From: a virus
Length of the DNA stretch: 39,422 nucleotides
IMG/VR virus record: IMGVR_UViG_3300030390_001549
Coordinates: 1-39,422 of that record
Reading direction: 5' to 3' (one strand)
The stretch's first letter is position 1; the number at the start of each line of letters is the position of its first letter. The notes beneath the pieces are model-generated. The model ran no database searches. It was not told the DNA's origin and saw only the letters and a list, made by a program, of their open reading frames with translations. This document shows positions 11,063-35,784 of this stretch, one piece after another. Both the position numbers and the translations under genes were made by a program.

Positions 11063-12757
11063 TTATAACATACTTTTTTGTATTTCCTCCATGTAACTTT
11101 TATCATCAAGATGTTCTCCAAGCTCAGAATATCTACCATTTTGTAAATTATATTTGAATTGGCATTCACCTAATTCTCCAATGTGCCTAAACTTTATTTT
11201 TTGAACATAAACACTTGTGCTTTTACTCTTAAAATCTCTATAAACAGTCATTCCATTATCTACTTGATTATAAAAATTAGCAGAACCAGCAACATCATAT
11301 AGTGTAGGAACTTCATATAATCCATCATCTCTTTTATTCATTTTCCTAGGGTGAGCTACTAAAAATATATGTATATCATATTTTTGTTTAAATATAGTTA
11401 GTTTGGTTAAAAATTCATTTATATAATTTGTTTCGCTACCACTACCAATATTTGACTGTATCTTATTATAAGGGTCAATAATCAAGGCATTTATACCATG
11501 TCTTTTTATTAAAGCTTTTGCTGATTCTAATATAGCGTCAATAGTAAAAACATCTCCATCTGGTCTTATCCAATGATAATGATTAGATATAAAATTCTTA
11601 GCATATTGTAATTCTGTTTTAGTCATTCTTTGGTATTGCGTAATCTTTCTAAAAGATTTACCAGTAAATTTTTCAGCTAATACAGAAAAGTGTAATTCTA
11701 AAGGAAAGTGCTCAGGACTAAAAACTCCAAACTTCCATCCATGTTGAGCTGATAATCTCATACAAACATGCTCAAGAAAATTTGATTTACCATGAGTAGG
11801 AACTCCAGTAATAACAGTTAATTGAGAACTTGCAAAACTAAAAAGATTATCAAAAGCAGGATGACCTATAGTAACTCCTCTTTGTAATCCTGTTTCATAT
11901 AATTTATCTATATCAACATCAAAAGAATCAACTCCTAAAACTCCTTCAAGCGGATATATTTTAGATGTGTCTATACAGTTATTAATACCCTTAGCTTTAT
12001 ATTTAACTAGAACATCATTAATATCTTTACAATCATCTGGATAAGAAACTCTATAACAAATATCTCTACCTATTCTTCTTGAAATCTCTTCTTCTAATTT
12101 TTTTCCAGGCTTATCATTATCTACAGCTATGTAAACTTTCTCTAAATTATCAGGAAAGTCTTTTAGGTATTCCATTTTAAGATTACTTGCTCCATTAGGA
12201 ACTGAAACACAATTTTTATATCCAGCTTCATAAAAGGCTAGTTTATCCATTTCTCCCTCTACAATTATAGCCCACTTACTTCCCACTAAATCATCTAATC
12301 CATACATGATTTTCTCAGCGTCTTTTACTAACTTAAAGTTTTTAGCTCCATCCCTATATTTTATATTTACTAATTGACTATCTCTAAAGTAATTAAATTG
12401 TATTGTGTTTGTTTCTTTTGAAACTTGTGGCATATATTCTTTTCCTTCTGATATTCTATTAACTAATAAAGTTTTTTCAGATATGCCTCTATTAGAAAAC
12501 CAATCTAATAATTGTTTAGAATATTTACTTTTATTATTTTTTAATTTCGGTCTTATATAAACTTTTTCCATATAATCGTTTTCTTTTTTAAGATAACCCT
12601 TCCATCCACAATTATGACAATTCCAAATTCCCTCATCAATATTAACAGACAAACAAGCTTCTGTTTTCTTTCTTCTTTCATGAGAACATTTTGGGCATGT
12701 TGTTTTAACTTGTCCTGAGCTCTTTTTAATTTTTATGCCATAATCGTAAAAATTCAT
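11063..12757 (-). CDS. Bifunctional DNA primase-helicase (T7 gp4-like)
   Basis: 564 residues with three parts in order. (a) Zinc ribbon with Cys21, Cys24, Cys47 and Cys50. (b) Toprim primase core with VEGEMD at 166-171 (catalytic Glu167) and DND at 213-215. (c) DnaB/RecA-type helicase with Walker A GVPTHGKSN at 318-326 and Walker B ALIIDPY at 424-430. It would unwind the fork 5'-3' and lay primers. No phage DNA polymerase was found, so it probably works with the host replicase. Abuts the replication-initiator gene (TAATG-type junction). Confidence 0.93.
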   Translation of the reverse strand: MNFYDYGIKIKKSSGQVKTTCPKCSHERRKKTEACLSVNIDEGIWNCHNCGWKGYLKKENDYMEKVYIRPKLKNNKSKYSKQLLDWFSNRGISEKTLLVNRISEGKEYMPQVSKETNTIQFNYFRDSQLVNIKYRDGAKNFKLVKDAEKIMYGLDDLVGSKWAIIVEGEMDKLAFYEAGYKNCVSVPNGASNLKMEYLKDFPDNLEKVYIAVDNDKPGKKLEEEISRRIGRDICYRVSYPDDCKDINDVLVKYKAKGINNCIDTSKIYPLEGVLGVDSFDVDIDKLYETGLQRGVTIGHPAFDNLFSFASSQLTVITGVPTHGKSNFLEHVCMRLSAQHGWKFGVFSPEHFPLELHFSVLAEKFTGKSFRKITQYQRMTKTELQYAKNFISNHYHWIRPDGDVFTIDAILESAKALIKRHGINALIIDPYNKIQSNIGSGSETNYINEFLTKLTIFKQKYDIHIFLVAHPRKMNKRDDGLYEVPTLYDVAGSANFYNQVDNGMTVYRDFKSKSTSVYVQKIKFRHIGELGECQFKYNLQNGRYSELGEHLDDKSYMEEIQKSML

Positions 12758-13398
12758 TAAAATACCATGTTGTCAAATCCTTCTCCAGTAAAACCTCTAT
12801 TAGATTTATTTTCATATTCATCATCCCAACATCCTTGATTTAACCAAGTTAAAGGGTTTTTTCTATATATTGTATCAGTAGAGTGTAAAATATATTTCTT
12901 TGCAGATTCTACGCATTTAATACAAGTCTCCTCATCTAATTTCATGAATTTTGTCTTACAAGCTTTCAATCCTATCTTCTTTCCGTATATATCCCAAAAT
13001 TGATTAAAAAGCTTTTCTTTATTATTATTATTAATAATTTTATTATTATATGTAGCGTTTTTGCTTATAGGGTCTAAGCGTTTTTGCTTAGGGGGGTTAA
13101 TGTTTTTGCTTATACCCTTATTAACAATTTTTATTATTCTATTTTCAATAACATTATTTTCGTTCTTAATTATCTGCACTTTAATAAACCCAAACTTAGA
13201 TAAATTACTTATACATTTACTTATAGTTTTTCCATGTCTATCAAAAAGACTTCCAAAATAATTATTAGTTGCCCAACAATAACCCTTATGATTACATAAA
13301 CAAGTTATCTCTGCGTATAACAATCTTTCCATAGGAGATAGTTCTTTACAGTATCTAACCTCAGCTGGTAATATTGCATAGTAATTAGGTTTTTCCAT
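12757..13398 (-). CDS. Replication initiator-like protein with N-terminal winged helix
   Basis: 213 residues. The first ~75 (YYAILPAEVRYCKELSPMER, then YAEITCLCNHKGYCWATNNY, then KTISKCISNLSKFGFI) follow the HTH_36 fold of phage and plasmid initiators. An Asn/Lys-rich linker (~100-128) leads to a C-terminal domain (FWDIYGKKIGLKACKTKF, ending NPLTWLNQGCWDDE) like that of phage primosome/initiator proteins. Its stop meets the primase-helicase start, suggesting joint synthesis and that it loads that helicase. A terminator-like hairpin lies just upstream. Confidence 0.75.
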   Translation of the reverse strand: MEKPNYYAILPAEVRYCKELSPMERLLYAEITCLCNHKGYCWATNNYFGSLFDRHGKTISKCISNLSKFGFIKVQIIKNENNVIENRIIKIVNKGISKNINPPKQKRLDPISKNATYNNKIINNNNKEKLFNQFWDIYGKKIGLKACKTKFMKLDEETCIKCVESAKKYILHSTDTIYRKNPLTWLNQGCWDDEYENKSNRGFTGEGFDNMVF

Positions 13399-13408
13399 AT
13401 TAGTTGTT

Positions 13409-13487
13409 AAAAAAAAAGGAGGGAGTTAGAAATTTAAAGAAAAAAATATATAACGCTTATTATTTATTTTTAGTTAAACCCCCTCCT
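13409..13487 (-). terminator. Long-loop hairpin with T9 tract (terminator or attenuator)
   Basis: On the minus strand AGGAGGGGGTT (13477-13487) pairs with AACTCCCTCCT (13417-13427): 11 base pairs with one G-U, closing a 49-base loop, then nine T (13409-13417; the last overlaps the stem). It lies between the SSB-like gene and the initiator gene, so it could reduce transcription into the initiator and primase genes. The very long loop makes it weaker than a normal intrinsic terminator. Confidence 0.55.
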
Positions 13488-13497
13488 AGTTTATTTA

Positions 13498-16028: not shown

Positions 16029-16072
16029 TTCCAATAATTTCCAAACTATTAATTTTTTAATGCATTATATTG
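16029..16072 (+). promoter_or_regulatory. Late head-gene promoter with tandem TTCCA boxes
   Basis: TTCCA at 16029-16033 and 16039-16043 (period 10), 22 bases, then TATATTG at 16066-16072. There is no TTTG at the -33 position. The start codon is only 4 bases past the -7 element. At 32315 and 35339 the boxes are 12 bases from TATATTG; here the distance is exactly one helical turn more. Confidence 0.7.
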
Positions 16073-16076
16073 TATT

Positions 16077-17075
16077 ATGAATTGGTATAATATTAAAAAT
16101 GTTGCCGAAAGTAATACTACTGAGGTAATGATATATGATGAAATTGGTTTGTATGGGGTAAACGCCAAGTCTTTTGTAGAAGAGATAAAAGAAATTCCTA
16201 AATCTAAGTCCGTTCTTTTAAGGATAAATTCGCCAGGTGGTTCTGTTATAGATGGTTTGGCTATCTATGATGCTGTAAACAGATTACCACAAAAGGTAAC
16301 TTCTCGTATAGAGGGAATCGCTGCGTCTATGGCTAGTGTTATTGCACTTGCTGCTGATGAAGTGGTTATGAGTGAAAACTCACTCTATATGATACATAAT
16401 GTATGGGGAGGAGAAGTTGGAGATTCGGATGATTTACGCAAAGCTGCTGACCTCATGGATAAAATGAGTGATAGGCTTGTTAATATATATGTATCAAAGA
16501 CAGGAAAATCAGAAGAACAAGTCCGTTCATGGATGGATGAGGAAACTTGGTTTGATAGTTTTGAAGCATTTGAGTCTGGTTTTGTAAATAGTATAGAAGA
16601 ACCAATTAGAATGGCTGCTAAATTTGATATAGACAAGTACGATTATAAGAATAAGTTTCTTGTAAATAAATTATTTAATAACAATAAAAAAGAAAATCAA
16701 ATGGAAAAAGAATTTGAAAATTTAAAATCTTATATTTCTGAACTTTTTAATAAAAAGGCAGATGTAAAAGAGGTTAAAATTCTTGACAACGAAGAAGTGG
16801 TTGAAAAAATGAAGTCTTTAGAAGGTTCTATTGAAGAGTCTAATAAAGCTGTATTAGAATTAACTGGTTCTATTGTTGAAAAGGATGGATACATCGCAAC
16901 TTTAACTGAAGAGCTTGAAAGCTACAAAACTAAGGAAGCGAAAATGGAGGGAACTCCAAGTGATGTTGTTCCAGCAAAAGACCCTAACCCTACTCCAGAA
17001 AATAAAGAGGAGTCTGTATGGGATGTTTATGCTAACTCTATCGCTGATGATAAAAAAGTTTACTTTAAAAATTAA
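16077..17075 (+). CDS. ClpP-type head maturation protease with C-terminal scaffold region
   Basis: 332 residues. Residues ~15-175 are a ClpP/S14 fold: NSPGGSVIDG (51-60), nucleophile Ser84 in GIAASMAS, His107 in LYMIHNVWG, Asp154 in SWMDEETWF. After a Lys/Asn linker (~190-208) comes a ~124-residue acidic coiled coil ending in a polar tail. The enzyme would trim capsid and scaffold proteins in the prohead. An ATG at codon 209 with an A-rich leader may yield the scaffold alone. The start codon sits at the expected transcription start of the promoter at 16029-16072. Confidence 0.9.
   Translation: MNWYNIKNVAESNTTEVMIYDEIGLYGVNAKSFVEEIKEIPKSKSVLLRINSPGGSVIDGLAIYDAVNRLPQKVTSRIEGIAASMASVIALAADEVVMSENSLYMIHNVWGGEVGDSDDLRKAADLMDKMSDRLVNIYVSKTGKSEEQVRSWMDEETWFDSFEAFESGFVNSIEEPIRMAAKFDIDKYDYKNKFLVNKLFNNNKKENQMEKEFENLKSYISELFNKKADVKEVKILDNEEVVEKMKSLEGSIEESNKAVLELTGSIVEKDGYIATLTEELESYKTKEAKMEGTPSDVVPAKDPNPTPENKEESVWDVYANSIADDKKVYFKN
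16701..17075 (+). CDS. Possible internal scaffold protein, 124 residues (same frame as the protease)
   Basis: In-frame ATG at 16701 preceded by AATAACAATAAAAAAGAAAA, which resembles the leaders of independent genes here. The product (MEKEFENLKSYISELFNKKA onward) is a coiled-coil acidic protein as expected for a capsid scaffold; the nested arrangement parallels lambda C/Nu3. Inferred from the leader and domain boundary only. Confidence 0.4.
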   Translation: MEKEFENLKSYISELFNKKADVKEVKILDNEEVVEKMKSLEGSIEESNKAVLELTGSIVEKDGYIATLTEELESYKTKEAKMEGTPSDVVPAKDPNPTPENKEESVWDVYANSIADDKKVYFKN

Positions 17076-25477: not shown

Positions 25478-26563
25478 TTGGGAAAAAGATTAAGATTGTC
25501 AGATGAAGAGGTTAATCTGATATACAAAAGTAGAGCTGGAGAGCTCTCTAACCTCAACTATAACCTATCTCACAACTCAGCATTAGATGAGCACTTACAA
25601 GAAAGAGGTATAGACAAGAAAGATGTTGTCTCTGTTAAACATTGGCAGAATATGAGTGGAGAACTTCGTTTTTCAGTTGTTACAAAGACAAATATAGTAG
25701 ATGAGAAAGATGTTTTTAATAATGTTATAAATCTTATTGAAGATTATTCTCCAACCTATCCTAAAATTAAACATAAAAAAGGAGAAAACTTATTAGTTAT
25801 AAATCCAGCTGATGTGCATATAGGTAAATATGCAAATCAAGATGAGACAGGGGAGGAGTACAACATGGATATAGCTGTAGAAAGGGTTTTAACGGGTGTT
25901 AGTGGTCTTATTAGTCAATCTAAAGGGTTTAGTATAGATAGAGTGTTATTTTGTATAGGTAACGATATTCTTCATGTAGATAATGTATATAACACTACCA
26001 CAAAAGGCACTCCACAAGATTGTGATGGTAAATGGTGGGAGCATTACGAAGTAGCTTTACAAGTTTATGTTGGTTGCGTTGAAATGTTAAGAGAAATTGC
26101 ACCAGTAGATTGTATTCATTCAATGAGTAATCATGATTATCAAAGTGGATTCCATTTAGCTCATGCTCTAAAAGCTTGGTTCAGGAATTGTGATGATGTT
26201 ACTATTGACGCAGGTGTATCTCATAGAAAATATTATAAGTATGGAAGTAATCTTATAGGTCTTGAGCATGGAGATGGAGCTAAAATGGATAAGCTTCCTT
26301 TGTTAATGGCACAAGAAAAACCTCAAGATTGGGCTGATACTACTCATAGATATTGGTATTTACATCATATTCATCATAAAGTTAAGCATAAATGGCTTGA
26401 CGCAAAGGATTTTATAGGGGTTACAGTAGAATATATGAGGTCTCCTAGTTCTAGTGATAGTTGGCATAAAAGAAAGGGGTTTTCTGGAGTTCCTAGAGCT
26501 GTAGAGGGATTTATTCACAACAAAGAAAGTGGTCAAGTAGCAAGATTAACACATTATTTTTAA
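25478..26563 (+). CDS. Calcineurin-like metallophosphoesterase
   Basis: 361 residues starting at TTG 25478; the next in-frame ATG would remove 58 residues including a plausible N terminus, and a promoter ends 24 bases upstream. Metal-binding motifs in order: DVHIG (112-116), GNDILH (161-166), SNHD (217-220), GLEHGDG (~257-263), and HHIHHKVKH near the C terminus. The family includes SbcD/Mre11-type nucleases and other phosphodiesterases; the phage members have unknown substrates. Monocistronic: own promoter, and the sRNA promoter starts 17 bases after its stop. Confidence 0.82.
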   Translation: MGKRLRLSDEEVNLIYKSRAGELSNLNYNLSHNSALDEHLQERGIDKKDVVSVKHWQNMSGELRFSVVTKTNIVDEKDVFNNVINLIEDYSPTYPKIKHKKGENLLVINPADVHIGKYANQDETGEEYNMDIAVERVLTGVSGLISQSKGFSIDRVLFCIGNDILHVDNVYNTTTKGTPQDCDGKWWEHYEVALQVYVGCVEMLREIAPVDCIHSMSNHDYQSGFHLAHALKAWFRNCDDVTIDAGVSHRKYYKYGSNLIGLEHGDGAKMDKLPLLMAQEKPQDWADTTHRYWYLHHIHHKVKHKWLDAKDFIGVTVEYMRSPSSSDSWHKRKGFSGVPRAVEGFIHNKESGQVARLTHYF

Positions 26564-26579
26564 ATTTTATTGTAATTTG

Positions 26580-26611
26580 TTTGGCAGTTCCATTTTTTAT
26601 ATGTTATATTG
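26580..26611 (+). promoter_or_regulatory. TTTGGCAG-class promoter for a small RNA
   Basis: TTTG (26580-26583, part of TTTGGCAG), 21 bases, TATATTG (26605-26611). Spacing and -33 box identical to the main leftward early promoter. The expected start of transcription is near 26618, and the next terminator begins 41 bases later with no ATG between. Confidence 0.78.
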
Positions 26612-26617
26612 TATTAG

Positions 26618-26692
26618 TTTTGTTTGAAAGGTCGCCAGGCCTTACAAGTTAGTTAGTTGAAAGGAGGGGTTGTTCCCTCCTTTCTTTTTTTT
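26618..26692 (+). ncRNA. Candidate ~75-nt small RNA complementary to the accessory-gene leaders
   Basis: Bounded by the promoter at 26580-26611 and an intrinsic terminator. Predicted parts: an unpaired 5' end; hairpin AAGGTC-GCCA-GGCCTT (26628-26643, with one G-U); unpaired ACAAGTTAGTTAGTT (26644-26658); terminator stem. The unpaired AGTTAGTTAGTT (26647-26658) is the exact complement of AACTAACTAACT in leaders at 30291, 30559 and 30774, with 9-11 bases matching at 27091, 28402, 29322 and 31122. The hairpin-seed-terminator layout is that of bacterial regulatory RNAs. No open frame is present. Start is inferred from promoter geometry (plus or minus 3 bases). Confidence 0.6.
26659..26692 (+). 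terminator. Strong intrinsic terminator of the small RNA
   Basis: GAAAGGAGGG (26659-26668), loop GTTGTT, CCCTCCTTTC (26675-26684), then eight T (26685-26692): ten perfect pairs. It also catches any read-through from the metallophosphoesterase gene. Confidence 0.92.
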
Positions 26693-26697
26693 GGCGA

Positions 26698-26791
26698 AAA
26701 TGGCCTGAGAAAATCGCATTTAGGCGGGGAAAATGGCCTGAGAAAATCGCATTTAGGCGCGTAAATGGCCTGAGTATTCGCTCTTTAGGCG
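26698..26791 (+). repeat. Array of three AAATGGCCTGA repeats
   Basis: Units at 26698-26726, 26731-26759 and 26763-26791; starts 33 and 32 bases apart, i.e. three helical turns. Units 1 and 2 are identical over 29 bases (AAATGGCCTGAGAAAATCGC then ATTTAGGCG); unit 3 differs in the middle. Each unit has a short inverted repeat GCCT...AGGC. The 3-4-base gaps rule out CRISPR spacers. Together with the small RNA and the following promoter this array fills the gene-free stretch 26564-26907. Confidence 0.85.
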
Positions 26792-26881: not shown

Positions 26882-26907
26882 TATTATACTAACTTAAAAA
26901 CAAAACT

Positions 26908-27051
26908 ATGTGGGAAACAAAATACTTTAATACACAAAAAGAAGCTCAAAAATTTATGATAAATTATCAATTTATTTATAGATTTCAAATGATATTTGTA
27001 GAAAATGGATATGGGGTAGAATATAAAAAACTTAAAAATAACTATCTATAA
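26908..27051 (+). CDS. Hypothetical protein, 47 residues
   Basis: ATG 26908 behind ACTAACTTAAAAACAAAACT; TAA at 27049-27051. MWETKYFNTQKEAQKFMINY then aromatic-rich. The promoter of the next gene begins one base after its stop. No family recognised; the leader supports translation. Confidence 0.6.
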   Translation: MWETKYFNTQKEAQKFMINYQFIYRFQMIFVENGYGVEYKKLKNNYL

Positions 27052-27052
27052 A

Positions 27053-27121
27053 TTTGGCAGATTAAAAAATTATGCTTTATATGTTATTATAACTAACTTA
27101 AACTAACTAAAAACAAAACAA
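27053..27121 (+). promoter_or_regulatory. Duplicated promoter-leader cassette, copy 1
   Basis: TTTG (27053-27056, in TTTGGCAG), 21 bases, TATATGT (27078-27084), then leader AACTAACTTAAACTAACT and AAAAACAAAAC before ATG 27122. The 42 bases from TATATGT through the leader (27078-27119) recur without change at 28389-28430. Confidence 0.75.
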
Positions 27122-27337
27122 ATGAAAACAAAACAAACTTCAAGAATTAAAGAACCTCAACACAGAAAAAGACAAAACATATTTTGGGAACACTATACTA
27201 TCAAAGAAGTAGCTGATGTATTTACTGATACATTTAAAGAGCAAATAACTGATTATTTAATATCCTATGGGTTAGAGCCTTCTGATGATAATGTAGATAA
27301 GGTTATAAAAGAAATTAAAAATATATATAAAAAATAA
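27122..27337 (+). CDS. Hypothetical protein, 71 residues
   Basis: Basic N terminus (KTKQTSRIKEPQHRKRQNIF) followed by helical sequence with EVADVFTDTFKEQITDYLIS. No assigned family. First gene behind the first duplicated promoter-leader cassette. Confidence 0.62.
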   Translation: MKTKQTSRIKEPQHRKRQNIFWEHYTIKEVADVFTDTFKEQITDYLISYGLEPSDDNVDKVIKEIKNIYKK

Positions 27338-27341
27338 AATT

Positions 27342-27446
27342 ATGGAAAAAGAATGTTGTATATGTAGGGATAAGTTTACACCTACAAATGAAAATGGGGA
27401 AACAAGACAATGTTGTAAAGAATGTATAATAGAATTTAATAAATAA
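27342..27446 (+). CDS. Zinc-finger mini-protein, 34 residues
   Basis: ATG 27342, TAA 27444-27446. MEKECCICRDKFTPTN, then TRQCCKEC: two CxxC pairs spaced as in a four-cysteine zinc finger. Four bases after the preceding stop. Such miniature fingers often bind host or phage nucleic-acid enzymes; here function is unknown. Confidence 0.6.
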   Translation: MEKECCICRDKFTPTNENGETRQCCKECIIEFNK

Positions 27447-27458
27447 AAATAAATAACT

Positions 27459-28070
27459 ATGAAAAACAAAACAGAATTTAGTTTAGAATTTGGTGGTTTT
27501 TATCATTCTATACACTCTAGTATATTAGATAGTAATTTAGAGTATATTTTAGAAGAAAATGGAAATGCTGTATCTGAAATTGAGCAATTTAATGAGGATA
27601 ATGTAGATTGGAAGAAAACGCATGAAAATTATGCTAAGAATTATTTAAGAAGTTTTTGCAATTTAATAGATATGAAATTAGAATATATAAAATTATGGAG
27701 CCCTGATTATTATAATTTTCAAACTGATAAAATAGTTTGTGAAATAAATGACACTAATTATAATGATTTGAAACACTCTTATTGTAATGATAATGATTTC
27801 GTTAAGTGGCTTAATGATATTAGCAGAAGTAGAGATGGTTTTCAGTCTTTTTATAGTGGTATTGATGAAGTAAAAAAAGAGCCTAGTATTTTAATGGAAT
27901 ATATTTTTCAGTATATTATTTGGCATGATGGAGCCGAGCCTTATGATAGTGAAGAATTACAAAATGAAATAATTGAGAATATAAATTGTAATGGAGGTGC
28001 TGAAATATATTTTAATAAAGCAAAAGAAAAGCATTTTCAAACTAATGGATTAGATAATGATAGCTTATGA
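27459..28070 (+). CDS. Acidic hypothetical protein, 203 residues
   Basis: The largest gene of the accessory block. Starts MKNKTEFSLEFGGFYHSIHS. By rough count acidic residues outnumber basic ones about two to one, giving a strong negative charge, as in DNA-mimic inhibitors of restriction or other DNA-binding enzymes; this is only a composition argument. Ends ATGA-coupled to the next gene. Confidence 0.68.
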   Translation: MKNKTEFSLEFGGFYHSIHSSILDSNLEYILEENGNAVSEIEQFNEDNVDWKKTHENYAKNYLRSFCNLIDMKLEYIKLWSPDYYNFQTDKIVCEINDTNYNDLKHSYCNDNDFVKWLNDISRSRDGFQSFYSGIDEVKKEPSILMEYIFQYIIWHDGAEPYDSEELQNEIIENINCNGGAEIYFNKAKEKHFQTNGLDNDSL

Positions 28071-28336
28071 GTTATATTGATGAGAATAATCCAGCTTATT
28101 TTAATGGCAATAATGTATCGTGCAAACTTTGCAATAATGATGCTATAAATTTAGATGAATATTGTGAAAAACATCAAAGATGCTATTTTTGTGGGGATAA
28201 TGATAATTGTAATTGTGAACAAGAAATGAAATTGATTTCTGATTGCTGCAGTGCTAAAATAGATAATGATATTGGTATTTGCTATGATTGCAAAGAACAT
28301 TCTCAAAGTGCATGGGATGCTTATGTAGATGTATAA
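28067..28336 (+). CDS. Multi-cysteine zinc-binding protein, 89 residues
   Basis: ATGA overlap with the preceding gene. Cysteines form at least three pairs (SCKLCNN, RCYFCGDNDNCNCE, then SDCCSAKI and ICYDCK), enough for two or three zinc sites. Probably an adaptor that binds protein or nucleic acid. Made in step with the acidic 203-residue protein, so the two may act together. Confidence 0.65.
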   Translation: MSYIDENNPAYFNGNNVSCKLCNNDAINLDEYCEKHQRCYFCGDNDNCNCEQEMKLISDCCSAKIDNDIGICYDCKEHSQSAWDAYVDV

Positions 28337-28363
28337 TAAAAAAACAAAATAAATAACAAAACA

Positions 28364-28431
28364 TTTGGCAGTCTCAAATATTAGCTGTTATATGTTATTA
28401 TAACTAACTTAAACTAACTAAAAACAAAACT
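28364..28431 (+). promoter_or_regulatory. Duplicated promoter-leader cassette, copy 2
   Basis: TTTG (28364-28367, in TTTGGCAG), 21 bases, TATATGT (28389-28395), then the same leader as copy 1 up to ATG 28432. The spacer between the boxes differs from copy 1 while both boxes and the leader are identical, which argues for selection on the boxes or gene conversion of the leader. Confidence 0.78.
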
Positions 28432-28614
28432 ATGGAAATTACAAAAGAGCAATTTAATGAGTACAAAGAAGTGCAAGAAATGGGAGCATACAATATGATG
28501 AGCCCTCAAGCTAGAGAATTGACTACCTTGTCAAAACAGGAGTGGATTTTTATAATGAAGAATTATGAGCAACTCGTGCATCTTATATATTATCCTATTG
28601 ATGGTAAAAAATAA
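28432..28614 (+). CDS. Hypothetical protein, 60 residues
   Basis: MEITKEQFNEYKEVQEMGAY with NMMSPQARELTTLSKQEWIF: a short helical protein with the MxxxxAxELTxLxKxE pattern I associate with small Bacteroidota phage proteins of unknown role. Behind promoter-leader copy 2. Confidence 0.66.
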   Translation: MEITKEQFNEYKEVQEMGAYNMMSPQARELTTLSKQEWIFIMKNYEQLVHLIYYPIDGKK

Positions 28615-28618
28615 AACT

Positions 28619-28744
28619 ATGAAAAAAGAAAAGTATTGCCCTAAATGTGATAGCAAATTAGAGGTAGAAAAAGAAAAAGAAATAAATTACCCTTATGTAT
28701 GTAAGGATTGTGATGAAAACTTTTATGAATTTGAAATTAAATAA
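28619..28744 (+). CDS. Zinc-ribbon mini-protein, 41 residues
   Basis: ATG 28619, TAA 28742-28744. YCPKCDSKL and YVCKDCDENFYEF: two CxxC knuckles ~18 residues apart, a zinc ribbon as in transcription-related small proteins. Four bases after the preceding stop (AAACT leader). Confidence 0.65.
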   Translation: MKKEKYCPKCDSKLEVEKEKEINYPYVCKDCDENFYEFEIK

Positions 28745-28768
28745 TAACTAAGTAAAAAAAACAAAACT

Positions 28769-29086
28769 ATGAAAAATTTAAGAAACAAAATTGAAAAAGC
28801 TATAATTAGACAAGAATTGTCGTATCGTGGCGGAGGTATTGAAATTGATTTAACTCCTTTTGGATTTAAAGATGAAATGATGACTGCATACCAAAATTAT
28901 CTAGGAGGCGGTATGCTAGGTAGAATTTGTAATGATTGCACTATAATAGAGTGGCAATGCGATGATGATTTGATGATGATTTCAGAAGAATTATCTAAAT
29001 TTATGCATGAATTAACTAATCCTGATTGTGAATGGGCTGGTAGCGATTTTATAGGTAATTTAAACAGGCCAGTAGCTGCATATTAA
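28769..29086 (+). CDS. Hypothetical protein, 105 residues
   Basis: Acidic, with MKNLRNKIEKAIIRQELSYR at the start and a C-terminal SDFIGNLNRPVAAY. Leader TAACTAAGTAAAAAAAACAA before the ATG. No family recognised. Confidence 0.66.
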   Translation: MKNLRNKIEKAIIRQELSYRGGGIEIDLTPFGFKDEMMTAYQNYLGGGMLGRICNDCTIIEWQCDDDLMMISEELSKFMHELTNPDCEWAGSDFIGNLNRPVAAY

Positions 29087-29112
29087 ATTTTAATAACTAA
29101 CTAAAAAACAAA

Positions 29113-29331
29113 ATGAAAACGAAAAATGAAAAAATAGTAGAGAAAGAGGAAAATAGTAGAAAAAGAGGAAAAATTATTCCACGACAAATTATTATTCCTG
29201 TATGTTATTCTCAAGATGAAGAAACAGGAGAAGTATATTATGATTTTGAAAACATGGCTTTTGAGTTTAAATCTAGCCTATCTAATTTAGATGATAGCGT
29301 AACCTGCTCGGTAGAAATAATAACTAACTAA
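29113..29331 (+). CDS. Hypothetical protein, 72 residues
   Basis: Basic N terminus (KEENSRKRGKIIPRQIIIPV) and acidic C-terminal half. The last codons (ITN-stop) lie inside the TAACTAACTAA leader of the next gene. Confidence 0.62.
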   Translation: MKTKNEKIVEKEENSRKRGKIIPRQIIIPVCYSQDEETGEVYYDFENMAFEFKSSLSNLDDSVTCSVEIITN

Positions 29332-29343
29332 AAAAACAAAACT

Positions 29344-29550
29344 ATGGATATTACAAATATGATGGGAGCCTTTTTGATACTAGGAGATATGCAAAACTAT
29401 GATAGTAAAGAGGATAAACTTAAATATAAGGAAAAGATTGTATTCTCTACTATGAGGGCTAAGATACCTGATTGGCAACCCCCTAGAGATTGGGATAATA
29501 TAAGTATAGATGATAAATTAACTAGATTAGAAAAATTAAAAACTATATAA
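29344..29550 (+). CDS. Hypothetical protein, 68 residues
   Basis: MDITNMMGAFLILGDMQNYD, charged helical remainder. Ends in a TAATG junction with the next gene, implying coupling. No family recognised. Confidence 0.6.
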   Translation: MDITNMMGAFLILGDMQNYDSKEDKLKYKEKIVFSTMRAKIPDWQPPRDWDNISIDDKLTRLEKLKTI

Positions 29551-29789
29551 TGGAAATAAATAAAACTAAAGAAGAATTAAAGGATTTGATACAAAAACTT
29601 AATAAGGATGATTTTAAGAAGTTTTGCGACAACTATAGTGTAGATGGTAGTAAATTTGAATTGATTGAGCAGTGGGTAGATAAAATGGATGATGAGGATG
29701 ATTTGAAGGAAGTTATAACTGAAATACATTTTAATAGCGTATCTGATTTTTTTAATGATGCTATATTTGGCAAAGAAAATAAAATATAA
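29550..29789 (+). CDS. Hypothetical acidic protein, 79 residues
   Basis: Helical, Asp/Glu/Lys-rich (LIQKLNKDDFKKFCDNYSVD). Coupled on both sides by one-base overlaps. No family recognised. Confidence 0.6.
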   Translation: MEINKTKEELKDLIQKLNKDDFKKFCDNYSVDGSKFELIEQWVDKMDDEDDLKEVITEIHFNSVSDFFNDAIFGKENKI

Positions 29790-29881
29790 TGGAAGAATTT
29801 TATAGCGTATTTAATTTTTGGCTTTATTTTTGGATAATAATTATATTCTTTGCTATGTGGGGATTATTTGATAGCATATAA
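29789..29881 (+). CDS. Membrane mini-protein, 30 residues
   Basis: ATG 29789, TAA 29879-29881. MEEFYSVFNFWLYFWIIIIF followed by FAMWGLFDSI: one membrane span. Overlaps the previous stop by one base and runs into the second AAATGGCCTGA array. Confidence 0.5.
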   Translation: MEEFYSVFNFWLYFWIIIIFFAMWGLFDSI

Positions 29882-29973
29882 ATGGCCTGAAAAATTTGTT
29901 TTATAGAGCGTAAATGGCCTGAAGATTTGCTTTTATAGTGATTAAATGGCCTCGCTTGATTTCCTTTTATGCG
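29880..29973 (+). repeat. Second array of three AAATGGCCTGA repeats
   Basis: Units at 29880-29910, 29912-29941 and 29944-29973, starts 32 bases apart, matching the pitch of the array at 26698. The left 10 bases AAATGGCCTG hold in two units (AAATGGCCTC in the third); the right ends (TTTTATAGAGCG, TTTTATAGTG, TTTTATGCG) vary around TTTTATAGCG. The array closes the gene block that the first array opens. Confidence 0.8.
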
Positions 29974-30119
29974 TTCCTCTGCTTTTGGCGGGGGTTCGCT
30001 TTTTCGTTTTGTGTTTTGTGGTCTGCTGTTTTGTGGTCTGCTGTTTTGTTTTGTGTTTTGTTATTCATATAAAAACATATAACAAAATAAAATTGATATA
30101 TAAAAGAATATATATATAA
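29946..30119 (+). CDS. Questionable 57-residue hydrophobic frame
   Basis: Begins at the ATG inside the last repeat unit and reads MASLDFLLCVPLLLAGVRFF, then VLCFVV/CCFVV-type repeats, then a basic tail. The FVVCC repetition comes from a DNA direct repeat (TTTTGTGGTCTGCTG, 30015-30043) in T-rich sequence, where hydrophobic codons arise by chance. No A-rich leader. Listed because it could be a membrane peptide; more likely non-coding. The rest of 29882-30316 holds AT-rich sequence and a promoter. Confidence 0.2.
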   Translation: MASLDFLLCVPLLLAGVRFFVLCFVVCCFVVCCFVLCFVIHIKTYNKIKLIYKRIYI

Positions 30120-30234
30120 ATATTAAAATATTCTTATTTCCTTATTTAGAATGGTTATAAACTACATTCTTAACTTACTCATATTCAATCAGTTATAAAT
30201 TAAATTAAAAATAAATTAAAAATATTTGTATTTC

Positions 30235-30269
30235 TATAGCGCGTATTAAAAAAATACTTCTTTTATTTG
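30235..30269 (+). promoter_or_regulatory. TATAGCGCG-class promoter of the second accessory segment
   Basis: TATAGCGCG (30235-30243), TATTAAAAAA, then TTTATTTG (30262-30269), which fits TAnnTTTG at seven of eight positions allowing for the Ns. Geometry equals that at 26848-26881. The leader AACTAACTAACT (30291-30302) follows. Confidence 0.5.
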
Positions 30270-30316
30270 TACCATCAAAACAAACTAATAAACTAACTAA
30301 CTAAAAAAACAAAACT

Positions 30317-30433
30317 ATGAACACAAAACAAAACACAATCAAAACAGACAAAACAGAGGCAGTAATTAACATTATTTATATTGCTGTTTCATTATCTCTT
30401 TTCATCTTTACAATTTATTCAGCAATACAATAG
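30317..30433 (+). CDS. Membrane mini-protein, 38 residues
   Basis: ATG 30317 after AACTAAAAAAACAAAACT; TAG 30431-30433. Polar basic start (NTKQNTIKTDKTE) then one span (VINIIYIAVSLSLFIFTIYS). First gene behind the 30235 promoter. Function unknown. Confidence 0.58.
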   Translation: MNTKQNTIKTDKTEAVINIIYIAVSLSLFIFTIYSAIQ

Positions 30434-30437
30434 ACCT

Positions 30438-30572
30438 ATGACTTATAAAATAACATCATATAAAAAAGCAAGCGGCGTAAAAATTTATACTATTGAGAAA
30501 AATGGCACTCCATTAATACAAGGCAGCGACTATAACACAATATTGCAAAAATATAACAAACTAACTAACTAA
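30438..30572 (+). CDS. Hypothetical protein, 44 residues
   Basis: Start chosen at MTYKITSYKKASGVKIYTIE (30438), four bases after the preceding stop; a longer in-frame form would read through the membrane-protein gene. Beta-hairpin-like, ends LTN over the next leader. Confidence 0.58.
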   Translation: MTYKITSYKKASGVKIYTIEKNGTPLIQGSDYNTILQKYNKLTN

Positions 30573-30586
30573 CTAAAAACAAAACT

Positions 30587-30766
30587 ATGACCTTAAAAAG
30601 AAAAACTATAATTGAAAATATTTACAGGCTTAATTATGATGAGATAATAAATAAAGATAGCCATATTAAATGGCGCGAAATTTTACAATTTGTTGCAGAA
30701 TTAAATGATAAAGAACTTTTGCAATATTATATAAAAGAATTGCAGTATAAATTAGAAACAATATAA
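30587..30766 (+). CDS. Hypothetical helical protein, 59 residues
   Basis: ATG 30587 behind CTAACTAACTAAAAACAAAA; TAA 30764-30766. MTLKRKTIIENIYRLNYDEI, all-helical, charged. No family recognised. Confidence 0.6.
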   Translation: MTLKRKTIIENIYRLNYDEIINKDSHIKWREILQFVAELNDKELLQYYIKELQYKLETI

Positions 30767-30804
30767 ATAAATAAACTAACTAACTAACTAAAAACAAAAA
30801 CAAA

Positions 30805-31134
30805 ATGAACTTAATAGAAAAAGCATTTTTAAAGGCAACAGAACAAGAAGAACAAAAACGAATAAATTTAAAAAAGAAATATCCAAAATGGACATTCGTA
30901 AAAGCAAAACCAAATAAAACAAAACTAATTAAATGTAAGTATAAACTAGACCTTGCTAAATCAATATATAAATATTATAATACAGGCGAGAAAATAGCTA
31001 TACAATATAATAGAAAGCTTATCTATAATGGCATTATAAATTTTGAACTACAAACGGGCGGAACTTATGCGCAACAAAATAGTTATCTACAAATAACAAT
31101 TAATAAATTTGTCAATCAATTACTAACTAACTAA
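30805..31134 (+). CDS. Hypothetical basic protein, 109 residues
   Basis: Lys-rich N-terminal half (QKRINLKKKYPKWTFVKAKP) suggesting nucleic-acid contact; C-terminal beta region with GGTYAQQNSYLQI. Ends LLTN over the next leader. Uses GGC and GCG codons that are rare in the late genes. Confidence 0.62.
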   Translation: MNLIEKAFLKATEQEEQKRINLKKKYPKWTFVKAKPNKTKLIKCKYKLDLAKSIYKYYNTGEKIAIQYNRKLIYNGIINFELQTGGTYAQQNSYLQITINKFVNQLLTN

Positions 31135-31144
31135 AAACAAAACT

Positions 31145-31450
31145 ATGAAACTAACAGCAAAACAAAAAAGAAATATTAAAGAAATCGGCGTTTTTCCTAT
31201 GATTAGCAAGAGGAGCGGCCGCGCGGTAGCTAATCAATATAAAATCTATATTAATGGCGGCGTATTGTTTCAGTCTTATAATGTAATCATAGCCGCTAAG
31301 ATGGACGATGGCGGCGTCTATTTAGATGCCAACTACTGGGATTACAGCCGTACTACTGGGAAATATCGTAATCAATTCTTAAATGAATATATAGAGTATA
31401 CGCGCGAACAGATTAAAAACGGAACTTATAAACTAACTAATTTAAACTAA
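31145..31450 (+). CDS. Hypothetical basic protein, 101 residues, GC-richer codons
   Basis: MKLTAKQKRNIKEIGVFPMI, then SGRAVANQYKIYINGGVLFQ. Glycine is mostly GGC and a GCGGCCGC site lies at 31215-31222, unlike the rest of the genome, so it may be a recent arrival. Ends KLTNLN over the next leader. No family recognised. Confidence 0.62.
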   Translation: MKLTAKQKRNIKEIGVFPMISKRSGRAVANQYKIYINGGVLFQSYNVIIAAKMDDGGVYLDANYWDYSRTTGKYRNQFLNEYIEYTREQIKNGTYKLTNLN

Positions 31451-31461
31451 TAAATAAAACT

Positions 31462-31791
31462 ATGAAAACAAATAAAGAATTTACAAATATTGTCTTTGTT
31501 CTAGAATATGATAGAGACAAAGACAGACAGACACCGAACAAGATAGAGCGAACAAAGGAACTAATGAGAACAGCGGCGGCTTACGCATTCTGTAGCATCT
31601 CATTTTCTTGTGGTATAAATACAGACAAGGATACAATAGCAGAGTATAACACATATATAGATGTAAACGAAACCGACACAATAGCACTACTTAACGCAGT
31701 CGGGGCAATATGGGGTTCTTATGTTTATATGCAAGACAATAGACTAAAGAAATACAATCCTACTCTACCAGATGCATACAGGGAGAATTAA
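31462..31791 (+). CDS. Hypothetical protein, 109 residues
   Basis: MKTNKEFTNIVFVLEYDRDK, a helical RTKELMRTAAAYAFCSISFS and a beta end. It is the last gene of the block; an intrinsic terminator follows by ~32 bases. No family recognised. Confidence 0.62.
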   Translation: MKTNKEFTNIVFVLEYDRDKDRQTPNKIERTKELMRTAAAYAFCSISFSCGINTDKDTIAEYNTYIDVNETDTIALLNAVGAIWGSYVYMQDNRLKKYNPTLPDAYREN

Positions 31792-31863: not shown

Positions 31864-32111
31864 TTCTATTTAACATAATAAATATTATAAGACAATAAGA
31901 ATAAAGAGGCTGTATATAGTACAATATAAGACAATATAAAAACAAATTAATAGTAGTATACTATAAGAATAAGATAGTTTGTTAGATGATATGTAAAGTG
32001 TATTTAATGAGGTTATAAGTATAACATACAGACAATCTATTTTACACGCATACAAAGGATATATTTCTATTTAACATAATAATTAAATAAGGTGATGTAG
32101 TACGATATAAG
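31864..32111 (+). repeat. Imperfect direct repeats in the gene-free stretch before the small terminase gene
   Basis: TTCTATTTAACATAATAA occurs at 31864-31881 and 32065-32082, and TAGTACRATATAAG at 31917-31930 and 32098-32111. No frame of useful length and no gene leader is seen between 31792 and 32370. A non-coding, repeat-bearing segment next to terminase genes is a natural place for a packaging signal or origin; which one cannot be told. Confidence 0.55.
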
Positions 32112-35338: not shown

Positions 35339-35372
35339 TTCCACAAACTTCCAAATATTTTTCGTTATATTG
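35339..35372 (+). promoter_or_regulatory. Late tail-gene promoter, tandem TTCCA boxes
   Basis: TTCCA at 35339-35343 and 35349-35353 (period 10), 12 bases, TATATTG at 35366-35372; no TTTG at -33. ATG follows after 4 bases, as at 16077, so the message is probably leaderless. Confidence 0.7.
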
Positions 35373-35376
35373 TAAT

Positions 35377-35784
35377 ATGAAAGAAATAGCTGATATATAT
35401 TGTTTAAACAAAAGGCATACAGAAATAGTATTTAGTTTTCTTTGTGATTTACAATCTGTAATTGATAAGTCAGTTTCTCATGATAAAAGATGTGAAAAAT
35501 TTGATACAGTTGTAGAGCAAATAATAGTGGTTCATAATGGAATAGGTATCTTATCTTTAGATGGAGAAATAACTAAAGATGAATGGTATTTATCATTACC
35601 TAATAATTTATATTGGGCTACATTAGGATTCTTCGCTTCCTTAGATGATGATAAAGAATCTCCCTTACTAGATATTTACAAAGAAGAAGCTTTAAATGTA
35701 ATAGAAAAACATATAAAAAAATTAAAAAACTCTCTTATTGTGCAGTCTATTACTGATGGAGAAAATATAAAAAACTTAAATTAA
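35377..35784 (+). CDS. Hypothetical protein, 135 residues
   Basis: First gene of the tail operon, helical and acidic (DKRCEKFDTVVEQIIVVHNG, LYWATLGFFASLDDDKESPL). It meets the chaperone gene in a one-base overlap. No family recognised; a head-tail or tail assembly factor is likely from position. Confidence 0.62.
   Translation: MKEIADIYCLNKRHTEIVFSFLCDLQSVIDKSVSHDKRCEKFDTVVEQIIVVHNGIGILSLDGEITKDEWYLSLPNNLYWATLGFFASLDDDKESPLLDIYKEEALNVIEKHIKKLKNSLIVQSITDGENIKNLN

Follow-up and report, generated by a model that had tools for sequence, protein, structure and literature searches.

We asked whether the short untranslated segment between an exonuclease gene and a block of small accessory genes in a phage genome encodes a regulatory RNA, and on which genes such an RNA would act. 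The initial annotation had read this segment as a probable phage small RNA whose seed is complementary to a leader shared by the accessory genes, a small-RNA reading that is largely supported by the sequence comparisons below. On these comparisons, the locus probably encodes a base-pairing small RNA that acts in trans within a lineage of flavobacterial phages and would lower expression of the accessory block by pairing with its leaders. It has its own promoter, an intrinsic terminator, no conserved reading frame and a co-varying seed (the 3' segment only).

The window, that is, the whole 39,422-nt stretch of DNA analysed, comes from a virus record of 39.7 kb and encodes tape measure, portal, protease and terminase proteins. 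It is a flavobacterial-type phage, and the related viruses are a marine bacterial virus family. Its promoter boxes and its A-rich leaders without Shine-Dalgarno sequences are consistent with flavobacteria (PMC9723704; PMC6847099), and the single genome match to its exonuclease is a Flavobacteriales bin. The exonuclease is matched by 1,577 phage records, every one below 60% identity; in GenBank, no near-identical phages were found, only distant exonuclease relatives. None of the 10 accessory proteins encoded at 26908-31791 had a Pfam match, and one alone among those searched had a PHROG match. Many related contigs (L096, L124, L128 and similar ones) begin 1-2 kb ahead of the terminase gene, so that a physical genome end perhaps lies near position 32000 of the window.

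The RNA unit and its predicted target leaders are listed in Table 1. The promoter was present at the claimed place, with the expected 21 nt between TTTG and TATATTG. Its -7 box fits the TAnnTTGY class mapped in Flavobacterium psychrophilum (the SM5 box, position -12 to -5; PMC9723704), which places the 5' end of the RNA near 26616. The terminator was likewise found where it had been proposed, with its eight T, although its stem counted 11 pairs and not the 10 claimed; terminator-like sites in the 10 kb numbered 8 vs 2.1 in shuffles. As the initial annotation had stated, there is no ATG between promoter and terminator, and in relatives no reading frame is conserved, with a chance ATG in single phages only. 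Both pairing segments are mostly single-stranded. A search of Rfam gave no family match to the RNA, with none above the gathering threshold.

Table 1. Predicted RNA unit, neighbouring gene and predicted target leaders in the window.
Feature	Positions	Strand	Remarks
DNA-repair-type exonuclease gene (PHROG 704)	25478..26563	+	constant left neighbour of the RNA unit
RNA promoter	26580..26612	+	TTTGGCAG box 26580-26587; -7 box TATATTGT 26605-26612
Predicted small RNA, ~77 nt	26616..26692	+	untranslated; downstream of exonuclease gene
5' pairing segment AGUUUUGUUU	26616..26625	+	complementary to AAACAAAACU adjoining start codons
Central hairpin, core GGUC-GCCA-GGCC	26623..26648	+	
3' pairing segment	26642..26661	+	contains AGUUAGUUAGUU (26647-26658); co-varies with own accessory leaders
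Intrinsic terminator	26659..26692	+	11 pairs, 4-nt loop (26659-26684), eight T (26685-26692)
Predicted target leader, gene 26908	26883..26909	+	pairing scan
Predicted target leader, gene 27122	27094..27121	+	pairing scan
Predicted target leader, gene 28432	28405..28431	+	pairing scan
Predicted target leader, gene 28769	28745..28768	+	pairing scan
Predicted target leader, gene 29113	29088..29113	+	pairing scan
Predicted target leader, gene 29344	29321..29343	+	pairing scan
Predicted target leader, gene 30317	30291..30316	+	joint best site in the window, -20.5 kcal/mol
Predicted target leader, gene 30587	30562..30586	+	joint best site in the window, -20.5 kcal/mol
Predicted target leader, gene 30805	30777..30805	+	pairing scan
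Predicted target leader, gene 31145	31121..31144	+	rank 3, -19.0
Predicted target leader, gene 31462	31431..31461	+	rank 5, -17.2

The element AGTTAGTTAGTT occurs once on the + strand (26647-26658), and its complement AACTAACTAACT stands upstream of genes 30317, 30587 and 30805, as had been reported. The motif AACTAACTAA had 15 matches vs 0.31 expected: all 14 copies on the + strand lie just upstream of small genes, and the single match on the - strand is the RNA itself. A second complementarity had been missed by the initial annotation. The predicted RNA begins with AGTTTTGTTT, the reverse complement of the leader half that abuts the ATG, AAACAAAACT. An exact reverse complement of AAACAAAACTA is given by TAGTTTTGTTT (26615-26625), and ACAAAACTATG was counted 7 times vs 0.02 expected, every time at a start codon. 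The RNA 5' end is thus complementary to the AAACAAAACT-AUG end of the same leaders, so that pairing in the window is two-part and collinear, the 3' segment facing the distal and the 5' segment the proximal leader half, with the hairpin looped out. This arrangement held in 9/9 leaders above threshold. It was found in only part of the leaders of related phages, and we did not retain it as a rule for the whole clade.

A pairing scan, in which the full RNA was folded against both strands of the window in 11-base steps, ranked accessory leaders as all of the top 8 non-overlapping sites and 11 of the top 16, centred 3-17 nt upstream of the start codon. These include four leaders beyond those initially listed (26908, 28769, 29113 and 31462). 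Nine of the 11 automatically called leaders fell within the top 0.2% of 3,519 background windows. In the related phage L010, 6/6 leaders were in the top 4%; each of the remaining relatives tested had between one and three leaders that stood out, and several that did not. The shuffled controls that the initial annotation had suggested favoured the real RNA body, which was equalled in its pairing with the window leaders by 1/300 dinucleotide-preserving and 0/300 mononucleotide shuffles.

For comparison, exonuclease relatives were drawn from viral contigs, and the RNA unit was present in the closest group, in about 18 related phages, once per contig and 33-55 nt past the exonuclease stop; no second copy was found elsewhere in the contigs checked. 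Its elements followed in the order TATATTGY, GTTTTGTT (or a variant of it), in most cases a hairpin, then a segment rich in U, A and G, and finally a terminator. The terminator was retained, as was TATATTGY upstream of the RNA in the relatives examined (as a consensus only), and this preservation of the promoter-terminator unit bears out the proposal of a separate short RNA. The 5' segment reads GUUUUGUU or GUUUUGAU in nearly all relatives. The hairpin varies in sequence (in three relatives ATAGTAAATCTTACTAT, ATAGTGTTTCGCACTAT and ATAGTAATTATTACTAT) with pairing mostly kept; its fold statistics are modest (mean z -0.94 over 12 groups) and it is absent in G004/G007, and we regard the central hairpin as weakly supported. 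Broad promoter-pattern scans of all viral contigs added one new member alone (L246), collection-wide pattern scans found no RNA unit outside this closest group, and a DNA search of viral contigs with the exact seed and terminator returned no match.

The initial annotation had held that related phages keeping the leader while losing the RNA would refute its reading. Such cases exist in part: the RNA is absent at the locus in one close lineage (L009, G017) and in more distant lineages, distant exonuclease relatives have CTAACTAAAAACAA-type leaders and no RNA at the locus, and A-rich leaders with CTAACTAAA occur in phages without the RNA. Since leaders without the RNA exist, the leader motif is independent of the RNA, and it is the RNA that follows the leader.

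We then compared, in 12 phage groups, the pairing energy of each RNA 3' segment with each phage's accessory leaders, called by a fixed rule. After removal of row and column effects, own pairs were better by 1.7 kcal/mol (z -4.2, P 5e-5). When sisters were averaged into nine lineages, 9/9 showed an own advantage (z -5.0, exact permutation P = 1.1e-5), and the result persisted when the window was left out (P 1e-4), when hand-chosen segments were replaced by the whole RNA minus its terminator, and under other leader limits; alternative sister representatives gave weaker co-variation (P 0.0003-0.023). No own advantage was seen with the antisense of the leaders (z -0.6), random windows (z -0.3), leaders elsewhere in the contigs (z 0.1) or shuffled segments (z near 0), and coding windows of the same genes gave a borderline trend (z -1.6, P 0.057). 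Sister phages compared mutually (L010/L016, G021/G022, G002/G003) showed no consistent own advantage, which indicates that the signal comes from deeper splits, about nine lineages only. Shared descent alone should not favour own pairs, we argue, because own and foreign pairs would have diverged to the same extent from their common ancestor. Examples of own pairs are AGTTTTAGTT with AACTAAAACT in L010 and TTGATTTG with CAAATCAA in G021. The 5' segment, also considered as a co-varying seed, is nearly constant and showed no co-variation. The seed-leader co-variation for which the initial annotation had proposed to look is thus seen for the 3' segment, which by these energy comparisons is co-evolving with the leaders of each phage's own accessory genes.

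These data also bear on a reading by chance and low complexity, in which the CTAA repeats act as stops in three frames and as A-rich enhancers, and the RNA resembles them through its composition. A period-4 TAAC repeat does yield stops in all frames, and CTAA-type leaders occur in phages without the RNA. However, shuffles of the same composition fail, and co-variation stands without the window and without CTAA repeats, as in the own pairs of G014 (ATTTTAAGTTA with TAACTTAAA) and L099 (GTTAATTGAT with ATCAATTAAC), making this explanation extremely improbable. In the window, TAAC repeats (27101-31440) place stops in all three frames right upstream of the leader, and some upstream genes terminate within them; these stops could insulate swapped accessory genes.

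Another candidate target was the leader of the replication initiation gene, located after ssb, which the RNA might mainly control in the way that plasmid antisense RNAs control rep. It was considered because including the G-rich terminator arm put it in first place in three phages: in G004, G007 and G018 it is the best genome site besides the RNA locus, and G018 and the G014/G016/G006 group have seed-matching rep leaders in common. That match, however, comes largely from the terminator arm, which is already engaged in a stem of the RNA itself. When energies with rep leaders were compared across phages, no clear own advantage emerged. Taken as a class, leaders beyond the accessory block had none either (z 0.1), and the top sites of the window scan do not include the rep leader. 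As main target it fails the own-versus-foreign comparison, and we hold this alternative to be very unlikely. Between the ssb-like gene and the replication initiation gene (12757-13398), the minus strand carries a long terminator-like hairpin with a T run (13399-13497), found in the window and in many relatives with the rep leader directly after it; attenuation of rep is possible there.

Instead of a free RNA, the segment might be an untranslated leader or attenuator belonging to the accessory operon that follows, given its position ahead of the block, its matching orientation and the terminator at its end. Yet the first accessory genes have their own promoters past the terminator in the window and in most relatives checked, and an attenuator, though some read-through into the block may occur, leaves both the co-variation and the complementarity to leaders kilobases away unexplained; we judge an attenuator very unlikely. 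The initial annotation had further assigned the RNA and the accessory genes to one promoter class within a feed-forward circuit. In the window, the TTTGGCAG box is indeed common to the RNA, two accessory promoters and also the leftward replication operon, but the -7 boxes differ: the RNA has TATATTGT, and the accessory promoters at 27078 and 28389 have TATATGTT. Among relatives, the RNA is preceded by a TATATTGY promoter, mostly with no TTTG box, and the accessory genes by one that combines TTTG with TATATG. A feed-forward circuit across the group is not supported by this comparison of promoters.

For the trans-acting small RNA favoured here, the pairing suggests a mechanism. In the window, the distal AACTAACTAACT part of each leader (about -28 to -11) would be bound by the 3' segment and the AUG-proximal AAACAAAACT by the 5' segment, the RNA hairpin being looped out between them. 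The resulting duplex would cover the A-rich leader and block ribosome entry or initiation, so that a single RNA could lower expression of all genes in the accessory block together. In F. johnsoniae, leaders with little structure and with adenines at -3, -6, -12 and -13 promote initiation (PMC6847099). Because ribosomes of flavobacteria initiate on A-rich, unpaired leaders and do so without Shine-Dalgarno pairing, a duplex would be expected to block initiation, and because pairing from about -28 to the start codon covers the initiation-favouring region, repression of translation is the likeliest effect. The pairing is A/U-rich and may need an RNA chaperone. Co-variation indicates pairing and not the sign of its effect, and the constant 5' GUUUUGUU segment could have another partner; the RNA might thus protect or activate accessory mRNAs, or the leaders might be decoys titrating it from another (host) target. 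The leaders, however, are A-rich with no evident blocking hairpin to open, and the pairing covers the start region, so that an effect of this other kind seems unlikely.

Several phage RNAs resemble the predicted one. P22 sar, which blocks translation initiation, lambda OOP and P1/P7 c4 are short phage antisense RNAs pairing with phage mRNA (PMC12197685). They share with the window RNA its small size, phage origin and complementarity to phage mRNA, but each is described for one target and is usually encoded opposite or adjacent to it, whereas the window RNA has its own promoter and matches about eleven leaders over 4.5 kb. It lies on the + strand like these targets and overlaps none of them, which separates it from cis-antisense RNAs of the sar and OOP type. 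PreS of lambda and VpdS of VP882 are trans-encoded phage small RNAs described as Hfq-dependent, and PreS targets a host gene (PMC12197685). Base pairing in trans is common to these and the window RNA; unlike PreS, its evident targets are the phage's own accessory leaders. Chromosomal small RNAs of Bacteroidota, for example in B. thetaiotaomicron, are also base-pairing and belong to the same phylum, but they are host-encoded, and an Rfam search found no sequence relation. Plasmid copy-number antisense RNAs resemble the window RNA in having a lineage-specific antisense code and, possibly, in controlling replication, although in the window the rep leader is not a supported target. A limited open-access search found no description of a phage RNA targeting a whole accessory block via a common leader with lineage-specific co-evolution. 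The locus is accordingly best classed as a predicted phage-encoded base-pairing regulatory RNA, whose apparent block-wide targeting via a common co-evolving leader is unusual.

Control of phage accessory genes is generally ascribed to promoters. In this case, sequence evidence points to one RNA linked with a leader that about eleven small genes, all of unknown function, have in common, and this in a bacterial group in which ribosomes initiate without Shine-Dalgarno pairing. If true, this would be a block-wide post-transcriptional switch and a handle on when accessory genes are on, and own-versus-foreign pairing tests could find others in phages. A more speculative extension, which we think rather unlikely, is a private RNA code per lineage, akin to plasmid incompatibility groups. 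The RNA would co-evolve with a leader that a shifting set of accessory genes has in common, a newly gained gene would be brought under control once it adopts that leader, and the RNA of one phage would have little effect on co-infecting relatives.

Two further features of these genomes were observed. In the relatives searched, the RNA terminator is followed directly by an intergenic repeat of 22-33 nt, present in one to five copies, which in the window lies at 26698-26790, 29880-29945 and 9691. Its sequence is phage-specific (AAATGGCCTGAGAAAATCGCATTTAGGCG in the window, AATTGGTAACAGCTTTGCTCTT in G004, AAATGAACGCTAATATCTCTCTTTA in L010), and it is perhaps a regulator or origin site. In addition, TATATTGTA promoters at 16065-16079 and 35365-35379 stand ~3 nt upstream of two ATGs, one belonging to the head protease gene (16077) and the other to the gene that follows the terminase (35377); the transcripts of both genes are apparently leaderless, unlike those of the leadered accessory genes.
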